A stretch of 48,841 nucleotides of DNA from Armatimonadota bacterium (GTDB lineage Bacteria > Armatimonadota > Zipacnadia > UBA1398 > JAKPQA01). How positions within the stretch are numbered: position 1 is the first letter of the stretch; each line of letters opens with the position of its first letter. Below the pieces are notes generated by a model. It was not told the origin of the DNA and did not search any database. It saw only the letters and a program-made list of their open reading frames with translations. Shown here in pieces: positions 37,256 through 47,991 of the stretch. The position numbers were made by a program, and so were the translations under genes. The stretch lies in contig JAKPQA010000199.1 in the NCBI GenBank assembly GCA_029547025.1, positions 1 through 48,841 on the forward strand, given 5' to 3'.

Positions 37256-38992
37256 CTACCGCGGGGGGGGCGGGCGGTCCGCCTCCGGCGACTCCTCGCC
37301 CTCGAGTGGCTGGATGGGACGCGTCCCTCCATGGGTCTTGCCCGTGGTTCCCGAAGCCCCCGTGCCCGGCTCCACCGAGGGCGGCGTCGGCTCCACCTTG
37401 GGCGGCGCCACCGGCTCGCCTCCCCCGTTCGGCGCCGACGGCGGTGTGGGCCGGTCGAGACCATCATCCGGCGGGATGTCGATGGGCGCGGGGGGGCCGT
37501 CGCTCACATCGAGGCGGATGGGAGACCCCTTGGCCACCTGCGTCTCGGGCGGCACGTCCTGGCGCATGACCAGGCCCTTCTCGACCTCCTCGCTGGCCTT
37601 GGGTAGGGGATGAGGGTCCAGACCCAACTTCCGCAGCCGGTCCAGGGCGTCGGCGGAGTCCAGACCGACCACATTCGGCACGGTGACCAGTGAGGTCTCG
37701 GGCTCCTTGGACCGGGCGACGACCACCTGGAGCTGGGAGTTCACGGGTACATCGATACCTGCATTGGGTGACTGACTGATCACCGTGTCTGGCTCATACT
37801 CGTCGGTTGGCTGGTACTCGACGTCAAGGATCAAGTTGTACGCCGCGGCGACCTCCCGGGCTTTCCGCAGCGGCTGGAAGACGACCTGGGGGACGGTCGT
37901 CATCGCTGGGGCCTTCTCTCCGCCATGGTCGGCCGGGGGTCTGGTGAGCCACAAGAACACGATGGCGCCGATGCCGACCACGGCGGTGAGAAAGACCAAT
38001 ACCCATGTGACCGGAGACATCTGGTCGGAGTGAGCGGCCGGATTGGGCGGGATGGAGCGGCGGACGACCTCGTCCTGATAGGCTTGCCGGACGGGTTGCG
38101 GTCTACGGATCACACGGGTGGTGTCGTCGCTGGCCGCAGCAGGTGCCGCGGCACGCCCGAACTGGACGGCCACGGCCTGCTGGACCGTGTAGAGCTCGGT
38201 GATGAGCTGGTGCGCCGACGGGCAACGCTCCGAGACGCGCTTGGCGAGCAACCGCTGGAGCAGCTCTTCGACCGCCAGTGGAATCGTGGGGTCAATCGCC
38301 CGCACCGAGGGCACCGGATCCTGCACGTGCTTCAGCGCGATGGCCACGGGGGTCTCGGCATCGAAGGGCACCTGGCCGGTCAGCATCTCAAACAGCACGA
38401 TGCCGAGTGAGTAGAGGTCCGACTGAGGGACCGCGCCATCGCCCCCGGCCTGCTCAGGCGCTAGATAGCGCACCGAACCGATGATGGTGCCCGTCTGGCT
38501 GACCGAGCTAGCGGCCATGGCTCGGGCGATACCGAAGTCGCCGACTTTGACGTCGCCCTCGCGGGTGAACAGGATGTTCTGTGGCTTGATGTCGCGGTGG
38601 ATGATGCCACTATCGTGCGCGTGCCGCAGGGCAGCGGCCACCTGAGAGGCGATACGGAGAGCTTCCTCGGGTGAGAGCTTGCGCTCACGGGCCAGCCGCT
38701 CACGAAGGGTCCCTCCGGTGAGGAGTTCCATCACGAAGTAGTGGCGACCACCCTCAAAACCGATGTCAAAGACACTGGCGATATTGGGATGGCTCAGTCC
38801 GGCGGCTGCGTGCGCCTCTCGCTGAAAGCGCTCGACGAACTCGTGATCCTGTGCCAGCTCATCGCGCAGCACCTTGACCGCCACGTCACGATTGAGCGAG
38901 TGATCGCGGGCCCGGTAGACCACGGCGGCTCCGCCGTCGCCAATGCGCTCGAGCACCTCGTAGCGTTCATTGCAGAGCAGGGTACCAGTCAT
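37256..38992 (-). CDS. PASTA-domain Ser/Thr protein kinase, PknB type
   Basis: A 578-residue membrane kinase. The Hanks-type domain (about 10-270) has the glycine loop GDGGAAVVY, K40 in VAVKVL, HRD at 132-134, DFG at 152-154 and an activation loop with threonines near 168. After a basic linker comes one membrane helix (about 328-350), then two PASTA domains outside the cell (about 364-428 and 435-498) and a Pro-rich tail. PASTA domains bind muropeptides or lipid II and link wall status to phosphorylation. The gene lies directly behind the SEDS-PBP fusion, the rodA-pbpA-pkn order of Actinobacteria, so control of wall synthesis is likely. GGAGGT is 13 bases before the ATG, farther than usual. 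Confidence 0.93.
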   Translation of the reverse strand: MTGTLLCNERYEVLERIGDGGAAVVYRARDHSLNRDVAVKVLRDELAQDHEFVERFQREAHAAAGLSHPNIASVFDIGFEGGRHYFVMELLTGGTLRERLARERKLSPEEALRIASQVAAALRHAHDSGIIHRDIKPQNILFTREGDVKVGDFGIARAMAASSVSQTGTIIGSVRYLAPEQAGGDGAVPQSDLYSLGIVLFEMLTGQVPFDAETPVAIALKHVQDPVPSVRAIDPTIPLAVEELLQRLLAKRVSERCPSAHQLITELYTVQQAVAVQFGRAAAPAAASDDTTRVIRRPQPVRQAYQDEVVRRSIPPNPAAHSDQMSPVTWVLVFLTAVVGIGAIVFLWLTRPPADHGGEKAPAMTTVPQVVFQPLRKAREVAAAYNLILDVEYQPTDEYEPDTVISQSPNAGIDVPVNSQLQVVVARSKEPETSLVTVPNVVGLDSADALDRLRKLGLDPHPLPKASEEVEKGLVMRQDVPPETQVAKGSPIRLDVSDGPPAPIDIPPDDGLDRPTPPSAPNGGGEPVAPPKVEPTPPSVEPGTGASGTTGKTHGGTRPIQPLEGEESPEADRPPPPR

Positions 38993-39093: not shown

Positions 39094-41793
39094 CTAGTTA
39101 CGTTGAAGCCAGGCACGCATAACATCCCGCGCGATCGGCGCGGCCACGCTGCCGCCCGAGCCACCGTTCTCAACCACAACCGCAACAGCGATACGCGGCG
39201 CCCGCACGGGAGCGAACCCGACGAACCAGGCATGAGGCCTGCCGTGCGGGTTCTCAGCCGTCCCGGTCTTGCCCGCCGTCGGGACCCCCGGCACCGCGCC
39301 ACCCCGGCCACTGCCCGACGTCGTCACCGCGTGCATCATCTCTGCCACCCGCCCGGCCACCTCGGGAGCAACCACCTGCCGCATCGGCTGGGCCGCCGAC
39401 CGGTGGATCACCTCATCGCCATCCGATACCGATCCGATCACGTGTGGATGCATCAGCACCCCGCGATTGGCGATGGTCCCGGCGATCATCGCCATCTGCA
39501 GCGGCGTGATCTGCAGCTGTCCCTGCCCGAATGAGCTCTCGAGCAACAGGGCCGTCGTCGCGAGATCCCCGCCGGCCGCCAGGCGGCTCACGGCCGCATT
39601 CACACCGATATCGAGGGCCTCGCCGATGCCGAACGCCCTGGCATACTGAGTGAACAAGCCCGGGCCCAGTTCGAGACCCACGTGGGCGAAGTAGATGTTG
39701 CACGAGCCCGCGAGGGCCCGCTCCATGGTGATGCGTCCGTGCCCCTGTTTCGAGGAGCACACGATACGGTCGTGCTCAATGACTTCGACGCCCGTGCACG
39801 TGGCCTCAAAGCCCTCGGTTATCTTACCAGAATCGAGAGCGGCAGCGGCGAGGAGGATCTTGAACGCCGAACCCGGCGGGTACAGCCCCTGTGTCGCCCG
39901 ATTCAGCATCAAGCCCTCCCGCTCGCCGCCCTCCGAGAGGATCTTGGCCACCTGGGCCGGGTCGAAGGACGGTTTTGCGGCCAGGGCCAGGATCTCGCCC
40001 GTGGCCGGATCCAGCGCCACCACGGCCCCACGGCGATTCCCAAGCCGGTCCCACGCCCGCCGCTGCAGGGCGGCATCGAGCGTAAGCCGGACGTCATATC
40101 CCCGGGCTCGTCGATCGCCACGCTGGATCACATCCAGGATACTGCCCTGCCGTTCGGTCAGGCCGAGCAGGTAGCCGCTGGCCTCGGCCTCAACACCAGC
40201 AAGCCCGTAGCGTTCGTCCCGGTAGCCAACGACATGGCTGAACAGACGGCCCTGGGGATAGACGCGCTCGCCGGGATTCTGGCCCGGCCCCGCCAGCACC
40301 ACGCCGTTCCGGTCGACGATCTTGCCCCGCTCGATCGAGCGTTCGACAGCGAGCAGCCGGGGGTTCCTCGGATGCACCGAGAGCTCGGGCCCCCGGACGA
40401 TCTGCCAGTAGCCGACCCACAGAGTGAGGGTCGCGAAGAGGAACACGTGGAGGCGCGCAAGGGGCCAGGGGCGAGCGCCCGGCCACGGCGTCTCGGCGAC
40501 ACACCGCTGCTCCATGGCCAGGTTGCACTCCTGCGAGAGCTTGAGCACCAGGCCGAGGGCGAGGCCCGAAGCCAGGAGGCTACTGCCTCCATGGCTGAGG
40601 AAGGGCAGGGTGATGCCCGTCATGGGGATCGCTTTGGTGACTCCGGCGATGATGATGGCGGCCTGGAGGCCGAAACCGGCCGCCAGCCCTGAGCCAAGCA
40701 GGCAGGCAAAGTCCGATCGGGCGTTCCGAGCGTGCGCCAGGATCCGGCAGGCGAGAAGGGCGAAGGCGAGGCAGAGGGCAGCTGCGCCCACATAGCCAAG
40801 TTCCTCCGCGAACGCGGAGAAGATGAAGTCGGACTCGACCACGGGGACGCGATCGGGCAACCCGCGGCCAATGCCGGTCCCGAGGGGCCCGCCTGAGGCC
40901 AGTGCGAACAACGACTGGATGATCTGGTAGCCCGGCTGGTCGTCAATGTAGGGCCAGGGGTTCAGCCAGGCGGTGACGCGGATGGCCAGGTGGGAGAAGC
41001 GGGGATAGCACACATAGGCGGCGGCCGCGAAGAGGCTCAAACCCAGGCCCACGAAGACCGGCCGGCTCGTGGCGACGTGGAGCACCGAGAGGAACACGCA
41101 GAAAAAGACGAGGGCGCAACCGAGGTCTCGCTGGCAGACGATCAAGAGAACGCTGGCGGCCCACATGACCAGCAGGGGCCCCAGGTGGCGCATGGAGGGG
41201 TAGGGGATGCCGGCGAAGCGCTCGGTCCAGTTGGCCAGAACCTCGCGCCGCTGGTCGAGATAGCCGGCGAGGAACACGCACATGAAGACCTTCGATAGCT
41301 CGGAGGGCTGGAAGGTCAGGGGCCCGATACGCAGCCACTGCCGGACGCCGTTGACCTCCACTCCGAACACCAGGGCCGCGGCCAGGAGCATGGCCGCGCC
41401 GATGCCACACAGGTAGGTGTAGCTTTCGAGCCGCTCGGACCGGCGAAGCCACGAGGCAACGCCCACGGCCAGGGCGAGGCACGTTATGGCCAGCGCGCGG
41501 TGATCGCCGGCCAGCTCGGGTTTGAGTCGGTGCATCTCGACGAGGCTGAGGCCCAGCAGGCAGGCAGCCACGGCGTACAGAGCCAGATCGACCCCGCGGA
41601 CCCAGTAGGCCAGCCAGACGGCACCCACGGCGGCCACGGCCACAAAGGGGGCCACCCAGCTGAGCTCATCGATGGCCGGCCGGCCGGTGTTGGCGGCATA
41701 ACTCGCCGCGGCCAACAGCGGGACCGCCAGGGCGGCGATGAGGCCGGCAGGGCCCATGCGCAGCCGGGCCAGAGCCGCAACGTCCCGATGCAC
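39094..41793 (-). CDS. Fused SEDS glycosyltransferase and class B PBP transpeptidase
   Basis: An 899-residue single polypeptide. Residues 15-425 form a RodA/FtsW protein with about ten hydrophobic segments, NGVRQWLRIGPLTFQPSEL, the catalytic-type D223 in QRDLG, GTGIGRGLPDRVP and LPFLSHGGSS. A further membrane helix (about 446-464) replaces the N-terminal anchor of a short PbpA-like transpeptidase with S642-A-F-K645, S697-C-N699 and K842-T-G. Both catalytic halves look intact, so it should polymerise lipid II and crosslink the product. These are normally two proteins that form a complex. GGGAG lies 6 bases before the GTG at 41793, a better start than the open frame at 41928, which runs back over the promoter region. 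The PASTA kinase gene follows about 100 bases later. Confidence 0.93.
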   Translation of the reverse strand: MHRDVAALARLRMGPAGLIAALAVPLLAAASYAANTGRPAIDELSWVAPFVAVAAVGAVWLAYWVRGVDLALYAVAACLLGLSLVEMHRLKPELAGDHRALAITCLALAVGVASWLRRSERLESYTYLCGIGAAMLLAAALVFGVEVNGVRQWLRIGPLTFQPSELSKVFMCVFLAGYLDQRREVLANWTERFAGIPYPSMRHLGPLLVMWAASVLLIVCQRDLGCALVFFCVFLSVLHVATSRPVFVGLGLSLFAAAAYVCYPRFSHLAIRVTAWLNPWPYIDDQPGYQIIQSLFALASGGPLGTGIGRGLPDRVPVVESDFIFSAFAEELGYVGAAALCLAFALLACRILAHARNARSDFACLLGSGLAAGFGLQAAIIIAGVTKAIPMTGITLPFLSHGGSSLLASGLALGLVLKLSQECNLAMEQRCVAETPWPGARPWPLARLHVFLFATLTLWVGYWQIVRGPELSVHPRNPRLLAVERSIERGKIVDRNGVVLAGPGQNPGERVYPQGRLFSHVVGYRDERYGLAGVEAEASGYLLGLTERQGSILDVIQRGDRRARGYDVRLTLDAALQRRAWDRLGNRRGAVVALDPATGEILALAAKPSFDPAQVAKILSEGGEREGLMLNRATQGLYPPGSAFKILLAAAALDSGKITEGFEATCTGVEVIEHDRIVCSSKQGHGRITMERALAGSCNIYFAHVGLELGPGLFTQYARAFGIGEALDIGVNAAVSRLAAGGDLATTALLLESSFGQGQLQITPLQMAMIAGTIANRGVLMHPHVIGSVSDGDEVIHRSAAQPMRQVVAPEVAGRVAEMMHAVTTSGSGRGGAVPGVPTAGKTGTAENPHGRPHAWFVGFAPVRAPRIAVAVVVENGGSGGSVAAPIARDVMRAWLQRN

Positions 41794-41845
41794 GCCGAAC
41801 TCCCTTCCGCCCGAGCCGCCTGTCCGCGCCCGTGGGCCGGGCCCC

Positions 41846-41853
41846 AGTATAAT
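41846..41853. promoter_or_regulatory. Overlapping -10 boxes of two divergent genes
   Basis: AGTATAAT holds TATAAT on the plus strand (41848-41853), toward the C45-coaB-coaC operon, and TATACT on the minus strand (41846-41851), toward the SEDS-PBP gene. No good -35 element is seen for either. If both are real, the two operons would compete for polymerase. Confidence 0.35.
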
Positions 41854-41899
41854 CGACACGCGAGCAGCGACGTTGGTGAGGCGCGGGAGTGTCTGGTCC

Positions 41900-42910
41900 G
41901 TGAGCGAACACGTGAGACAGCCGCGCATCCGTCACCTGACGGGTGACTACGGCGACATGGGCTGGGCTCTGGGCACCGGGCTGGACTGGACGGCGGTTCT
42001 CGCCGAGGCGGTCGGGAACCCCGAACTGGCGGCCCAGTGCGAGAGGCTCGCCGAGCGGGTATACCCGCCCGCCGTGGCGAAGTTCCATGGTATCGTCGAG
42101 GCGCTCGGCGTGCGGCCCGAGGCGCTGCGGCCGTGGTACTTCGTGCGTGGGGCGACGATCGGGTGCACGACGTTCGCGTTCGAGCAGGACGTGCCGGTCG
42201 TGGGGAGGGCCTATCATTGGTTCCACGAGGCCGCCAAGTGGTGCGAGGTGCGCCGTGTTGAGCCGCGCGGCGCGCGAGCGTTCATGGGCTACACCCACAA
42301 CGCCGTGGGGGTGCCCGACGGGATGAACGACGCCGGGCTGTGCGTGTTCCTGTCGGCCCTGCCTCCCACTCCGGTCCAACGGCCGGGGCTGCCATGGCAC
42401 GCGGTCATGGACTGGGTGCTTGGCTCGACGGCGACGGCTGGAGGCGCCGTCGAGTTGCTCACAAGCATTCCCCATGTCCGGCCGTTCGTCTACTTTCTCG
42501 CCGATGCATTCGGCGGATTGGCGGCCGTCGAGGCGTTCCCGGACGGGACTCATGTCCGGCGCGCGGAGGGCGGGCTCCTGGTCGCGACCAACTACTCGGT
42601 GTGTCGAGGCATTCCCGAGCGCCACGAGGGGCGCCATGGAGAAGCCGAGCGCCTGCTATCCGGCAGGCAGCAGCCGCTCACGGCCCAAGACGCCCGTGCG
42701 ATAGTCGCGAGCCACGATGGGCCATTCTGCGCGGGGAGGCACGCCGGCGCCATCGACGAGTTCCGCGATCCGGACTGGTACACGCTATGGGGCCTCGTCG
42801 CCGAGCCCGCGCAGCGTCGGCTGAGCTTGGCCCCAGGCCAGCCATGCCGCACGCCGTGGGTCGAGTTGCCGGTTGGCAGGGACGTGGAGGGCAACCCCGG
42901 ATGCCACTGA
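41900..42910 (+). CDS. C45-type acyltransferase/amidase (N-terminal nucleophile fold)
   Basis: A 336-residue protein that resembles acyl-CoA:6-aminopenicillanic acid acyltransferase and related Ntn hydrolases. These are cut autocatalytically so that a Cys becomes the new N terminus. The likely nucleophile is C89 in ATIGCTTFAF, with G88 before it as the cut site. YTHNAVG and GMNDAGLCVFLSAL further along fit the beta-sandwich core. No signal peptide is visible. The start is taken as the GTG at 41900, with GGGAG about 11 bases upstream. It overlaps coaB by 10 bases and opens the operon that leads to HzsA-like protein 2. A role in CoA or acyl-amide chemistry is inference only. Confidence 0.82.
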   Translation: MSEHVRQPRIRHLTGDYGDMGWALGTGLDWTAVLAEAVGNPELAAQCERLAERVYPPAVAKFHGIVEALGVRPEALRPWYFVRGATIGCTTFAFEQDVPVVGRAYHWFHEAAKWCEVRRVEPRGARAFMGYTHNAVGVPDGMNDAGLCVFLSALPPTPVQRPGLPWHAVMDWVLGSTATAGGAVELLTSIPHVRPFVYFLADAFGGLAAVEAFPDGTHVRRAEGGLLVATNYSVCRGIPERHEGRHGEAERLLSGRQQPLTAQDARAIVASHDGPFCAGRHAGAIDEFRDPDWYTLWGLVAEPAQRRLSLAPGQPCRTPWVELPVGRDVEGNPGCH

Positions 42911-43581
42911 CAGGTCGGCACGTGCTCATCACCAGTGGCCCGACCCAGGCCCCCATCGACGCGGTGCGGTACATCGCGAACACGTCCAGCGGCGCGCTCG
43001 GGGCACACACCGCCGACGCCGCTCTGGACGCCGGGGCGAGCGTGCTCCTGGTGCACGGCCCCGGGAGCATCGTGCCCCAGCCGCACCCACGCCTCACCCT
43101 CTCACCCGTGCGGACCGTCGATGACCTGATCGCCACACTGCAGCGACAGCTCGCCGCGACGCGTTTCGACGCGATCGCCCACGCCATGGCGGTGCTCGAC
43201 TATGTCCCCGAGGCTGCGGGAACGGGCAAGATCCCGTCGGGCCAAGACCACATCGACCTCCGCCTGGTTCCTACGCCCAAGGTGATCGACCGCGTCCGCG
43301 AGTGGGCTCCGGACTCCCTGCTGATCGGGTTCAAACTGGTGGCGGGTGAGAGTGACGAGGGACTGCGCCAGGCCGCCCTCACTCTCCTTCGCCGCAGCGG
43401 GGCCGATCTCGTGGTCGCGAACGACATGGTGCAGATCCAGGCCGGCGAGCATCGGGCAGTGTTCATCGAACCCAGCGGACGCACCGCGGGCGCCTTCGTC
43501 GGCAAAGCCGCGATTGCCGAGGCCCTGGTCCGGGAGATCGCTGCCCGACTGGCGGGCCGAGAGGGGAGTGGGCTATCGTGA
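42901..43581 (+). CDS. coaB: Phosphopantothenate-cysteine ligase (monofunctional CoaB)
   Basis: A 226-residue protein that matches the ligase half of CoaBC, which joins cysteine to 4'-phosphopantothenate in CoA synthesis. Visible motifs are ITSGPTQAPIDAVRYIAN and TSSGALG, a MAVLDYVPE segment, the Lys in TGKIPSG and a nucleotide site near GFKLVAGESDEG, followed by VVANDM. In most bacteria this domain is fused behind CoaC; here it is a separate gene placed before coaC. The ATG at 42901 overlaps the preceding gene by 10 bases and has GGAGG 10 bases upstream. Its stop overlaps the coaC start as GTGA, so the two are coupled. Confidence 0.9.
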   Translation: MPLTGRHVLITSGPTQAPIDAVRYIANTSSGALGAHTADAALDAGASVLLVHGPGSIVPQPHPRLTLSPVRTVDDLIATLQRQLAATRFDAIAHAMAVLDYVPEAAGTGKIPSGQDHIDLRLVPTPKVIDRVREWAPDSLLIGFKLVAGESDEGLRQAALTLLRRSGADLVVANDMVQIQAGEHRAVFIEPSGRTAGAFVGKAAIAEALVREIAARLAGREGSGLS

Positions 43582-44126
43582 GTCATCTCGAGGGCCGATC
43601 GGTCCTGGTGGGCATCACCGGAGGAATTGCGTGCTACAAGGCCGCCGAACTCGTGAGGTCGCTGAGAAAGGCCCAAGCTCAAGTGCGCGTGATGATGACC
43701 CGCGCGGCGTGCGAGTTCGTGACGCCTCTGACGTTCCAGACGCTCTCGCAGAAGCCGGTGGCGACCGACCTGTTCGCACCAGTCTCGGACTGGGAGATCG
43801 AGCACATCTCGCTGGCCCGCGGGGCCGACGTGGTGGTCGTCGCCCCGGCCACGGCGAATGTCATCGGCAAGGTGGCCCACGGCATCGCCGACGACCTGGT
43901 CACAACGGTCATCATGGCCACTCGGGCTCCGGTGGTATTCTGCCCCGCCATGAATGTGGCGATGTGGGAGAACCCCATCGTGCAGGCGAACATCCGGCGC
44001 CTGGCCGAACTGGGCTACCGCTTCGTCGAGCCCGCTGAGGGTGACCTGGCCTGCGGCGAGGAGGGCAAAGGGCGCTTGGCCGAGGTGGAGCGGATCGTGG
44101 AGGCCGTCGCGGTCGCATTGCCCTGA
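43578..44126 (+). CDS. coaC: Phosphopantothenoylcysteine decarboxylase (monofunctional CoaC)
   Basis: A 182-residue flavoprotein that decarboxylates 4'-phosphopantothenoylcysteine to phosphopantetheine. The HFCD-family motifs are clear: GITGGIACYKAAEL at the FMN site, the catalytic H76 in EHISLARGAD, PAMNVAMW with N126, and C159 in GDLACGEEGKGR. Length matches the decarboxylase domain alone. It begins with a GTG that overlaps the coaB stop. The next gene, HzsA-like protein 2, starts 22 bases later, so it appears to share the operon. The order coaB-coaC is the reverse of the domain order in fused CoaBC. Free-standing enzymes are known in streptococci and enterococci. Confidence 0.94.
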   Translation: MSHLEGRSVLVGITGGIACYKAAELVRSLRKAQAQVRVMMTRAACEFVTPLTFQTLSQKPVATDLFAPVSDWEIEHISLARGADVVVVAPATANVIGKVAHGIADDLVTTVIMATRAPVVFCPAMNVAMWENPIVQANIRRLAELGYRFVEPAEGDLACGEEGKGRLAEVERIVEAVAVALP

Positions 44127-44148
44127 GCCACTAGCGAGGAGCGCACGG

Positions 44149-47100
44149 ATGCTGTCGCCAACGGTGCGCTGTGCCGCACTGATCCCCATCGTGGTGGTCT
44201 GCTCCGACGCCTGGGCGGCGCCATCGCTTCACGATCAGGTCGAGGCCGACTGGCGGCTCCAGGACCAATCGCGCATGCGCCACATCGAGCAGCCGGGCCT
44301 GGTGCGATTCGTCGAAGGCGAGGTCCAGTGGCCCGGCGCCCAACCGTCGCAGGGCGCCCGGGTGCCGTTCGGCGAGGCGCCTCGGCTCGATGGGCTCCTC
44401 GACGATGCCTGCTGGGCCGCGGCCATGGTCGTCGAGCCCGCCGCGCCCAATCTTCCGCGGTTCCGGCTGGCCCACGATGGCGAACGCCTCTACATCGGGG
44501 CCGAAATGCCGTCGAGCACCGAGGCTTGGTACCGGGGCGAGCCCACGGGTATGGACGCGGGCGGCGCGGTAGATGGCGTGCGCGACGGGCGCTACGGCTT
44601 CCACACGGGGGGTGATACCGACCCCTGGTGGCAGGTCGACCTCGGCCGAACCACGGAGCTGGGCCGCCTCGTGGTCTACAACCGGCTGGACTACGCGCCG
44701 GGCCTGCACAACGCCGACCAGCTCCGGGTACTCCTCTCAGACGACGGGACCGGGTGGCGTGAGGTCTACCAGAATCCCGGTAGCTTCTTCGGCGGAATGG
44801 ATGACACCGGTCCACTGCGCGTGGACCTGCACGGGCAACGGGCACGTTACGTGAGGCTGCAGGTGCCGGGTGCCGTGCTGTTCCATCTCGACGAGGTCGA
44901 AGTGTACGGCCCCGACGGCATCGGCCCCAATCTCGCCCTGGGCCAGCCGGCCCAGCAGAGCAGCCTGAGCATCTGGTCGCGCGGCGGTCCGTCCGGCGGC
45001 GTGCTGGTTCAGCTGGGTGGGACGACCGTGGTGCTGCCATCCGGCCAGCCGCCGCAGGCGGTGACCGACGGGCAGGCGAAGCAGACCGGCGCCGCCGCTC
45101 GCGGGGGCGGCACGACCCGCCTCGAACTCGCACTGCCCCTCACCCAGGTCGGTGCCGCCTACCCCGGAGCCGCGCGTCTCGCCAGCGCCGAGGCGATCCC
45201 ACTGCCACTGGGCGCCCGCTTCGACGCTCGCCTTCCCGACGCCCCCGTGCTCGGCTATGGGATCATCCGCGTCCCCGTGGCCGTCGGCACAGTCCGGGGC
45301 CCTTGGCCCGGGCCCGTGGAACTATCGGCGGAGCTCATCGTGTTCACCCCGCGGCGCATGGAGCGCGTTCCGGGCCGCGTGGTGACCATTGATCGGCCGG
45401 GAACGACGGAAGTGACCGTCACCGCGCGACATGAGGGGCCGGCCGTGCTCTTCATCACAGCCCGCCAGGACGACTCGACATTCCGCGACGCGCGCACCTT
45501 CTACATCCATCCCGCTCGCGAGGCCACCGACCGGGCACGGAAGCTCCTGGCGGAGTTCGGCCGGCCCGTGCCGCCCGAACTCCATCGAATCGAGCGCGCC
45601 ATCGAGTTGCTTGAGCAGCGCGAGCGGTCCAAAGGGCCGGACCCGGCGACGCGGGCCGAACTCTACCGGCAAGCCCGATGGCTGGCGCGCACGATCGCCT
45701 TCTCGAACCCGGCGCTGGAGATGGACGGCCTGCTGCTGGTCAAGCGCTTCACCCAGCAACCCTATCCCGATGTGTGTCTGAACCACATGCCCTGGACCTC
45801 GCGTCCCGGTGGCGACATCTGCGTGCTGGCCCCGGTCCGGCCCGATGGCCAGGTCCGCCGGCTCATCAATGGGCAGCTAGGGCCGGGACACGTCCACGGA
45901 GTGAGTCTCTGGTACGACGGAGACCGCGTGGCCTTCGGGTACGCCAGGATGCCAACCGAGGACCCTGCCGAGGGCTGGCTCGACCGGCGGACGAGCTTTG
46001 ACCTGCGTCGCACGGTGGAACCGATCCACATCTTCGAGATCCGGACTGACGGGACGGGGCTCCGGCAGCTCACCTCGGGGCCCTGGAGCGACCTGGATCC
46101 CGCCTACCTGCCCAGCGGCGACATCGCCTTCGTCTCGGAGCGCTGCGGGTACTCGCTCCAGTGCAACGAGTACGATAAGGACGAAACCTCCTGCAACCTC
46201 TACGTGATGCGCCCGGACGGCAGCGGGGTGCGCCGGATGAGCGTGACCAAGGACGGGGACTACCTGCCTCACGCCCTCGACAACGGCCTGCTCACCTACA
46301 CGCGCTGGGAGTACCAGGAGCGCAACTGGGCCCACATCCAGTCGGTCTGGGTGATGAACCCCGACGGCACGGGAGCAGACGCGCTGTACAAGCAGCACTT
46401 CAACGACCCGTGGGCCATCGAGGAGGCGCATTCGATCCCCGGCAGCAACAAGCTCCTGGCCATCGCCACCGGACACCACACACTGCCCGTGGGGCCGGTG
46501 GTCCTCGTCGACCCAAAGATGGGGATCAACGACCCGCGGGGCATCGGCATCATCACGCCGGGCACCAGTCCGCCTGAGGGGGGCATGGCCGGGCGACCGG
46601 TGCCCGAGGGGGGAGTACCCGGCGGCGGAGGCCTCTATGCCACGCCATGGCCGCTGTCCGAGAAGGCATGTCTTGCCAGTTTCACCTACAGCGATGTCAT
46701 GACGGACGAGAAGGGCTATGGGCTCTATCTGCTGGACGTATACGGCACGCGGGAGTTGGTCTACCGCGACCCAGACATCTCGTGCTTCTACCCGATCCCA
46801 CTCCGGCCCCGGACGCGTCCCCCTATCATCGCGTCGGTTTGGGACCCGGGGGCGAGGGCGGCATCATGCCTGGTCACCGACGTGACGATGGGAATGGACG
46901 GGATCGAGCCCGGGCGCGTCAAGTACCTGCGGATCGCCGAGGGCGTGGCCTGGCCCTACGACCTGGCACTCGGGGGGCTCCGCTACGAGCCGGATGTCAA
47001 ACCGGTGATGATCAACTGGAACCCCGTGCGCGTGCTGGGCACCGTCCCCGTGGAACTCGATGGGAGTGCGCACTTCGAGGTGCCGCCCGACACGCCTGTC

Positions 47101-47991
47101 TACTTCCAGGCCCTGGACGAGCGGATGATGGAGCTCCGGCGCATGCGGTCCTTCATCAGTTTCCAGCCAGGTGAGCGCCGCTCGTGCTCCGGGTGCCACG
47201 AGACGCGAGGCACCGCGCCGCCGAACACCGCCGTCCCGATGGCCGCCCAGCGGGCCCCCTCGCCGCTCGTCCCGCCGCCATGGGGTGACGGCGTCATCAG
47301 CTTCCTCCGCGACGTCCAACCGGTGTTCGACCGCCACTGCGTGGTCTGCCACAGCGGGCTCCAGCCCGCAGGTGGTCACGACTTCTCGGGTGGACTCACC
47401 CCCACGGCCAACACCGCGTGGGACACCATCACCCGCGCGCGGCTCGTGGCGCGCTCCAACGTGGGCGACGATGCGCGGATCACCCCGCCGCTCGAGTTTG
47501 GCTCCAACAAGAGCCGGATCGTCGAGGTTATCGAGACCACCCATCGCGGCCGTGTCCGGCTGAGCGAGGATGACCGGATCCGCCTCGTGACGTGGATCGA
47601 CGCTAACGCGCCCTACCACTCGGGTTTCATCAACAAGCGTCCCGAACGCCCCGTCTACGACCTGGCCGCCGATGCAGCCCTGCGCGCGAGGCTGGTGGAC
47701 GTGAGCCGACGACGCTGTGGGGCCTGCCACGAGCCGGAACAGGTCGCCCGGCTGGACTGGATCGACCTTCGCGACCCGGCCCGGAGCCGTTTCCTGGCGG
47801 CGCCACTCGCCACCGAGTCGGGCGGGTGGGGCCGCTGCCAACCCGCCGCGTACGCCCGTGCCGACGACCCGGACTACGCCGCAACGCTGTCGGCAGTTCG
47901 CCATGCCGTGGTCCGAGCCTGGGCGGCCCCCCGCCGCGATCTGGCTACGTTGGACCCGCCCATAGACAGGCAGGTGGCAGACGCGCCATGA
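44149..47991 (+). CDS. HzsA-like secreted tri-haem c protein
   Basis: A 1280-residue exported protein with a signal peptide ending near DAWA. A CBM9-like segment (about 75-125: APRLDGLLDDACWAAA) is followed by an F5/8 type C (discoidin) domain (about 140-250: DPWWQVDLGRTTELGRLVVY) and a beta-sandwich region. The HzsA-type propeller comes next (LTSGPWSDLDPAYLPSGDIA, LYATPWPLSEKACLASFTY, GTVPVELDGSAHFEVP), and then a cytochrome part with CSGCH at 1013, CVVCH at 1064 and CGACH at 1190. The first protein of this family, at 15503, has only two such sites and a different N terminus. GAGGA lies about 9 bases before the ATG at 44149. It probably binds a polysaccharide and carries electrons or oxidises it; this is inferred from the domains only. 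Confidence 0.9.
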   Translation: MLSPTVRCAALIPIVVVCSDAWAAPSLHDQVEADWRLQDQSRMRHIEQPGLVRFVEGEVQWPGAQPSQGARVPFGEAPRLDGLLDDACWAAAMVVEPAAPNLPRFRLAHDGERLYIGAEMPSSTEAWYRGEPTGMDAGGAVDGVRDGRYGFHTGGDTDPWWQVDLGRTTELGRLVVYNRLDYAPGLHNADQLRVLLSDDGTGWREVYQNPGSFFGGMDDTGPLRVDLHGQRARYVRLQVPGAVLFHLDEVEVYGPDGIGPNLALGQPAQQSSLSIWSRGGPSGGVLVQLGGTTVVLPSGQPPQAVTDGQAKQTGAAARGGGTTRLELALPLTQVGAAYPGAARLASAEAIPLPLGARFDARLPDAPVLGYGIIRVPVAVGTVRGPWPGPVELSAELIVFTPRRMERVPGRVVTIDRPGTTEVTVTARHEGPAVLFITARQDDSTFRDARTFYIHPAREATDRARKLLAEFGRPVPPELHRIERAIELLEQRERSKGPDPATRAELYRQARWLARTIAFSNPALEMDGLLLVKRFTQQPYPDVCLNHMPWTSRPGGDICVLAPVRPDGQVRRLINGQLGPGHVHGVSLWYDGDRVAFGYARMPTEDPAEGWLDRRTSFDLRRTVEPIHIFEIRTDGTGLRQLTSGPWSDLDPAYLPSGDIAFVSERCGYSLQCNEYDKDETSCNLYVMRPDGSGVRRMSVTKDGDYLPHALDNGLLTYTRWEYQERNWAHIQSVWVMNPDGTGADALYKQHFNDPWAIEEAHSIPGSNKLLAIATGHHTLPVGPVVLVDPKMGINDPRGIGIITPGTSPPEGGMAGRPVPEGGVPGGGGLYATPWPLSEKACLASFTYSDVMTDEKGYGLYLLDVYGTRELVYRDPDISCFYPIPLRPRTRPPIIASVWDPGARAASCLVTDVTMGMDGIEPGRVKYLRIAEGVAWPYDLALGGLRYEPDVKPVMINWNPVRVLGTVPVELDGSAHFEVPPDTPVYFQALDERMMELRRMRSFISFQPGERRSCSGCHETRGTAPPNTAVPMAAQRAPSPLVPPPWGDGVISFLRDVQPVFDRHCVVCHSGLQPAGGHDFSGGLTPTANTAWDTITRARLVARSNVGDDARITPPLEFGSNKSRIVEVIETTHRGRVRLSEDDRIRLVTWIDANAPYHSGFINKRPERPVYDLAADAALRARLVDVSRRRCGACHEPEQVARLDWIDLRDPARSRFLAAPLATESGGWGRCQPAAYARADDPDYAATLSAVRHAVVRAWAAPRRDLATLDPPIDRQVADAP

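Follow-up and report, generated by a model that had tools for sequence, protein, structure and literature searches.

Fusion of a SEDS glycosyltransferase with a PbpA-type class B penicillin-binding protein in one reading frame beside a PASTA kinase gene in Armatimonadota

In the draft genome of an uncultured Armatimonadota bacterium, one open reading frame was found to span a SEDS glycosyltransferase and a class B penicillin-binding protein (PBP). Judged from the sequence and a structural model, the product is very probably a self-contained, one-chain peptidoglycan synthase, the fused RodA-PbpA pair of a kinase locus, present in addition to separate FtsW-FtsI and RodA-PBP2 pairs. Such fusions are already known; what is added here is that they are conserved and numerous in Armatimonadota and, in the order represented by the window, adjacent to a kinase gene. 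The window is the whole stretch of DNA analysed (48,841 nucleotides) and represents contig 6 of 369 in a 6.3-Mb draft genome that is 96% complete.

The fusion gene is located on the minus strand at 39094-41793, ending with a TAG stop at 39096-39094. These coordinates had been given correctly in the earlier note, in which the strand was left unstated; the plus strand of this interval contains several stops. The minus-strand reading frame is uninterrupted over 39094-41928, giving 944 amino acids if begun at ATG. Translation likely starts at the GTG at 41793, resulting in 899 residues, and a Shine-Dalgarno-like ggaaggga, read directly from the sequence, lies 7 nt before this codon (41801-41808, minus strand). 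Residue numbers refer to the 899-aa frame unless indicated otherwise; adding 45 converts them to the numbering of the 944-aa open reading frame.

Using Pfam, the SEDS glycosyltransferase domain (PF01098) was placed at 40528-41475 (residues 152-467 of 944; 6e-65, 220 bits, cut-off 26.4), the PbpA-type dimerisation or pedestal domain (PF21922, PBP_dimer_2) at 40150-40329 (residues 534-593 of 944; 9e-8, 32.7 bits, cut-off 27) and the transpeptidase domain (PF00905) at 39118-40029 (residues 634-937 of 944; 8e-67), all on the minus strand. Together with the uninterrupted frame, these domains bear out the original description of a complete SEDS protein running in frame into a complete class B PBP. 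The putative catalytic periplasmic aspartate of the SEDS part, D322 (D367 when counted in the 944-aa frame), falls in the alignment on the Asp of Thermus RodA (6bar) that has been replaced by Ala in 6bas. The transpeptidase motifs PGSAFK (S642, K645), SCN (697-699) and KTG (842-844) are intact by alignment, as had been claimed, and the core residues of the SEDS and transpeptidase catalytic motifs are kept across 16 aligned fused proteins. The SxxK, SxN and KTG motifs, the dimerisation domain and the predicted fold point to a class B PBP of the PbpA type.

Structure prediction with AlphaFold2 (five-model consensus, alignment of 54 rows) resulted in one confident model with a mean pLDDT of 93.6 and a pTM of 0.86; within the junction, the linker near residues 431-440 was least certain. 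The top match in the PDB was 4mnr, titled D,D-transpeptidase domain of Eggerthella lenta peptidoglycan glycosyltransferase. M. tuberculosis PbpA was among the best matches, and since the periplasmic part matches it along its length (TMt 0.86), this part is of ordinary PbpA size. The transpeptidase half had been described as short and PbpA-like with a reduced pedestal; the likeness to PbpA stands, and the pedestal is reduced in comparison with PBP2 and FtsI, not with PbpA.

The fusion missed the cut-offs of both the RodA equivalog TIGR02210 (199.6 versus 336.7) and the FtsW equivalog TIGR02614 (237.9 versus 337.5), and the free RodA and FtsW of the same genome likewise fell slightly under these NCBIfam cut-offs. 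Free counterparts of rodA, ftsW, pbp2 and ftsI, which the earlier note had proposed to look for, were all found elsewhere in the genome, ftsI in the form of an FtsI-type PBP. One free SEDS protein scored best to RodA (contig C91, 325.5 bits against 336.7) and a second one to FtsW (contig C173, 300 against 337.5); C173 also encodes an FtsI/SpoVD-type protein, C2 a PBP2 (457 against 455) and C172 a class A PBP. As a free RodA, FtsW, FtsI-type PBP and PBP2 are encoded as well, the fusion represents a third SEDS-class B PBP pair.

At the junction, a cytoplasmic linker (40471-40527, minus strand) connects the last SEDS helix to the PBP transmembrane helix (40396-40467, minus strand; model residues 443-466). 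The single helix noticed between the SEDS part and the PBP ectodomain is therefore the transmembrane helix of the PBP itself. SEDS proteins have their C-terminus in the cytoplasm and class B PBPs their N-terminus, which makes the fused topology compatible with both. Two relatives carry the same junction: G001 encodes the fusion as 955 aa with 48% identity on a 330-kb contig, and in G002 a fragment cut by the contig end still spans the SEDS-PBP junction in one frame. Over 570 codons these two relatives are 80% identical; within the 20 linker codons, a small sample from one genome pair, 10 codon differences are synonymous and 1 is nonsynonymous (dN 0.025, dS 0.92). This pattern matches that expected of a translated, constrained coding frame under purifying selection. 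The linker of both relatives contains several threonines.

An assembly or sequencing artefact, by which a stop was removed or two genes were merged, might be suspected in a draft of 369 contigs, the more so as in parts of the class both genes share a frame and are one stop apart. Against this, the identical fused frame is present in two further assemblies, one of them a 330-kb contig, divergence across the junction is dominated by synonymous changes and a stop remnant is absent. Given the fused relatives G001 and G002 and the linker dN/dS, an artefact was rejected as extremely improbable. A stop, frameshift or assembly join between residues 425 and 470, named at the outset as what would refute the fusion, did not turn up: both relatives, from separate assemblies, are open there and linker changes are mostly synonymous, a check made on the assembled sequences of the relatives.

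The frame could also be fused while its functional products are separate, the PBP being freed by proteolysis of the linker or by initiation at an in-frame internal ATG (M427 of 899; 40513-40515, minus strand). An aggag is located 12 nt upstream of this ATG, and an engineered RodA-PBP2 fusion underwent partial cleavage during purification. The spacing from aggag is long, making ATG 40515 a possible internal start that would be poorly placed; the G001 linker contains no ATG, GTG or TTG, the sole start-type codon in G002 is a GTG further upstream, within the last SEDS helix, and purifying selection acts on the linker as coding sequence. Separate products were accordingly considered very unlikely, and a single chain is the preferred reading.

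The gene 101 bp downstream of the fusion (37256-38992, minus strand) encodes a PASTA Ser/Thr kinase of the PknB/Stk1 family, scoring 491.9 bits to NF033483 (cut-off 450), and is followed downstream by aroA. The adjoining probable kinase, on the same strand as the fusion, was hereby confirmed. Most loci examined in the window's class show the order SEDS-PBP-kinase. Using a small FHA profile, FHA genes were detected next to most split Armatimonadota pairs, mostly upstream, and also beside pairs from Actinobacteria, Chloroflexota and some Bacillota; with this profile none was found beside the fusion in the window or in G001. Because the FHA partners are not adjacent at these two loci, the regulatory module may have changed. 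Two other contigs of the genome (G000), C55 (176885-177533) and C189 (19889-21529), encode paired FHA domains, which are possibly relocated partners of the locus.

In Actinobacteria, the linkage pstP-rodA-pbpA-PASTA-kinase is conserved (PMC6554272), and PbpA of M. tuberculosis was reported as a PknB substrate (PMC3989709). The fusion shares with the actinobacterial locus fhaA-fhaB-pstP-rodA-pbpA-pknA-pknB the PbpA-type dimerisation domain and fold, the position of SEDS upstream of the PBP, the adjacent PASTA kinase and, in the window's split relatives, the FHA genes; it differs in that the genes are separate there, whereas here they are fused without an adjacent FHA gene. The fusion is best read, on its domains and gene order, as the fused form of an actinobacterial-type RodA-PbpA pair from an FHA-rodA-pbpA-PASTA-kinase locus. 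In the window's order, the pair is fused, the kinase is retained and the FHA gene is not beside it.

On the other side of the fusion, a divergent plus-strand open reading frame (41738-42910) matches acyl-CoA:6-aminopenicillanic acid acyltransferase (AAT). It is followed on the same strand by two overlapping open reading frames, a CoaB-like DFP (42823-43581) and a CoaC-like flavoprotein (43578-44126), which do not form one CoaBC fusion and in which DFP comes first. A large protein encoded at 43954-47991 (plus strand) carries F5/8 type C domains and matches the middle domain of hydrazine synthase alpha and, weakly, cytochrome c.

The earlier proposal to search genomes for the same fusion and to place it on a phylogeny was carried out. 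An intact fused frame spanning both domains was found in at least 41 of 291 Armatimonadota genomes, a lower bound given the threshold applied and the maximum of three scored candidates per genome; G002 represents a partial 42nd case. The window's class was covered by 46 genomes, and in the tree all 28 kinase-linked pairs of this class from outside the window's order are split. Among 80 loci from a scan of public genomes, both domains were in one frame in eight: four from Coriobacteriia, two from Lachnospiraceae and one each from Acidobacteriota and Chloroflexota. The mention of scattered natural fusions was thus right as to their occurrence, and 'scattered' understates it, since they are widespread in Armatimonadota and recur in other phyla. 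The two Lachnospiraceae cases (L142, L144) are apparent fusions in single metagenome-assembled genomes, nested among split relatives, and could reflect recent fusion or sequencing error. For one draft genome (G236), two fused copies on different contigs were recorded (L088, L095). In three loci titled Chromatiaceae and Elusimicrobia (L157, L166, L203), the order is reversed, with the PBP upstream of SEDS. An apparent 1003-aa open frame in G007 was discarded as a fusion because stops separate its genes. Kinship with phages or viruses was likewise dismissed: only four matches came from viral contigs, and these were weak or had the two domains apart, while no match at E<=0.001 was obtained from the viral structure library.

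The Coriobacteriia fusions (Eggerthellaceae, Slackia; L137, L138, L139, L213) resemble that of the window in domain order, a frame of 935-960 aa and a kinase downstream, and differ in that FHA genes are still located upstream and in forming a separate tree branch. The title of the Eggerthella lenta entry 4mnr, the top structural match, implies a natural fusion in that genus. A natural SEDS-PBP fusion is also cited for Rhodococcus RHA1 in PMC10449877 (its reference 18), with the same architecture in a different organism. No survey of natural SEDS-PBP fusions was found in the literature searched, which contained passing mentions only; earlier reports may have been missed.

In a broad clade of fused Armatimonadota proteins, SEDS likewise precedes the PBP in one frame. 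This clade differs in that many members have a helix-hairpin-helix region at the N-terminus, in an insert before the pedestal and in a kinase that is mostly absent from the flanks examined. An N-terminal transmembrane helix and the helix-hairpin-helix region precede the fusion in L075 (3801-7067), L063 (4591-8076), L071 (3888-7310) and other members; PF12836 exceeded its cut-off in L075, and in L063, L071 and the others the region was assigned by alignment only. By the inferred topology, it would be situated outside the membrane. The helix-hairpin-helix motif is usually linked to DNA, and such a position is odd.

In a tree of 148 pairs, at least five changes between the fused and the split state were counted, four of them forced by starred branches. 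A tree of 49 rows joins the window to G001 at 99*, their nearest other rows being split pairs, and sets the broad fused clade apart at 100*. Forcing the two Armatimonadota fusion groups together cost 9.07 log units with a p-AU of 0.095, so that one origin of both groups was not rejected. A single ancestral fusion that subsequently came apart in the window's class was nonetheless considered unlikely: the best trees group the window and G001 with split, kinase-linked pairs, a fully supported branch sets the broad fused clade apart, many of its members carry the N-terminal helix-hairpin-helix region, and a TPDADG-like insert of about 13 residues before NPRL is present in the broad clade and absent from the window and from split pairs. 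This junction anatomy favours separate origins of the two groups, and fusion seems to have occurred separately several times, the window's being one such case. In split relatives the two genes show any of the three frame relations, some being one in-frame stop apart, and fusion by stop loss or a small indel is therefore easily pictured.

In the proposed mechanism, the N-terminal SEDS part would polymerise lipid II. Its cytoplasmic C-terminus would lead through the short linker into the single transmembrane helix of the PBP, which would carry the pedestal and transpeptidase outward, where the nascent strand would be cross-linked. The synthase would work alongside two pairs of separate proteins, FtsW-FtsI and RodA-PBP2; it is probably regulated by the adjacent PASTA kinase. 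Activity of the fusion, an uncleaved chain, kinase control and a role in growth or division are what we infer from these data. Engineered SEDS-class B PBP fusions are functional or largely so (PMC6207328, PMC10449877); engineered RodA-PBP2 fusions have the same architecture and are active, and were built from the E. coli elongation pair. A fixed 1:1 stoichiometry follows directly if the fused chain stays intact, and fusion may constrain how the pedestal activates the SEDS part. More speculatively, and rather improbably, kinase-linked rodA-pbpA could be a repeated, selected fusion target across phyla, with the fused linker acting as a PASTA-kinase phosphorylation switch that sets SEDS-PBP coupling.

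As the complex requires no engineering, the fusion represents a convenient structural target. A natural one-chain synthase, of which several seemingly independent versions exist and which has split genes among its close relatives, offers a test of how the pedestal activates the SEDS polymerase, and it bears on whether dissociation of SEDS and PBP is ever needed.
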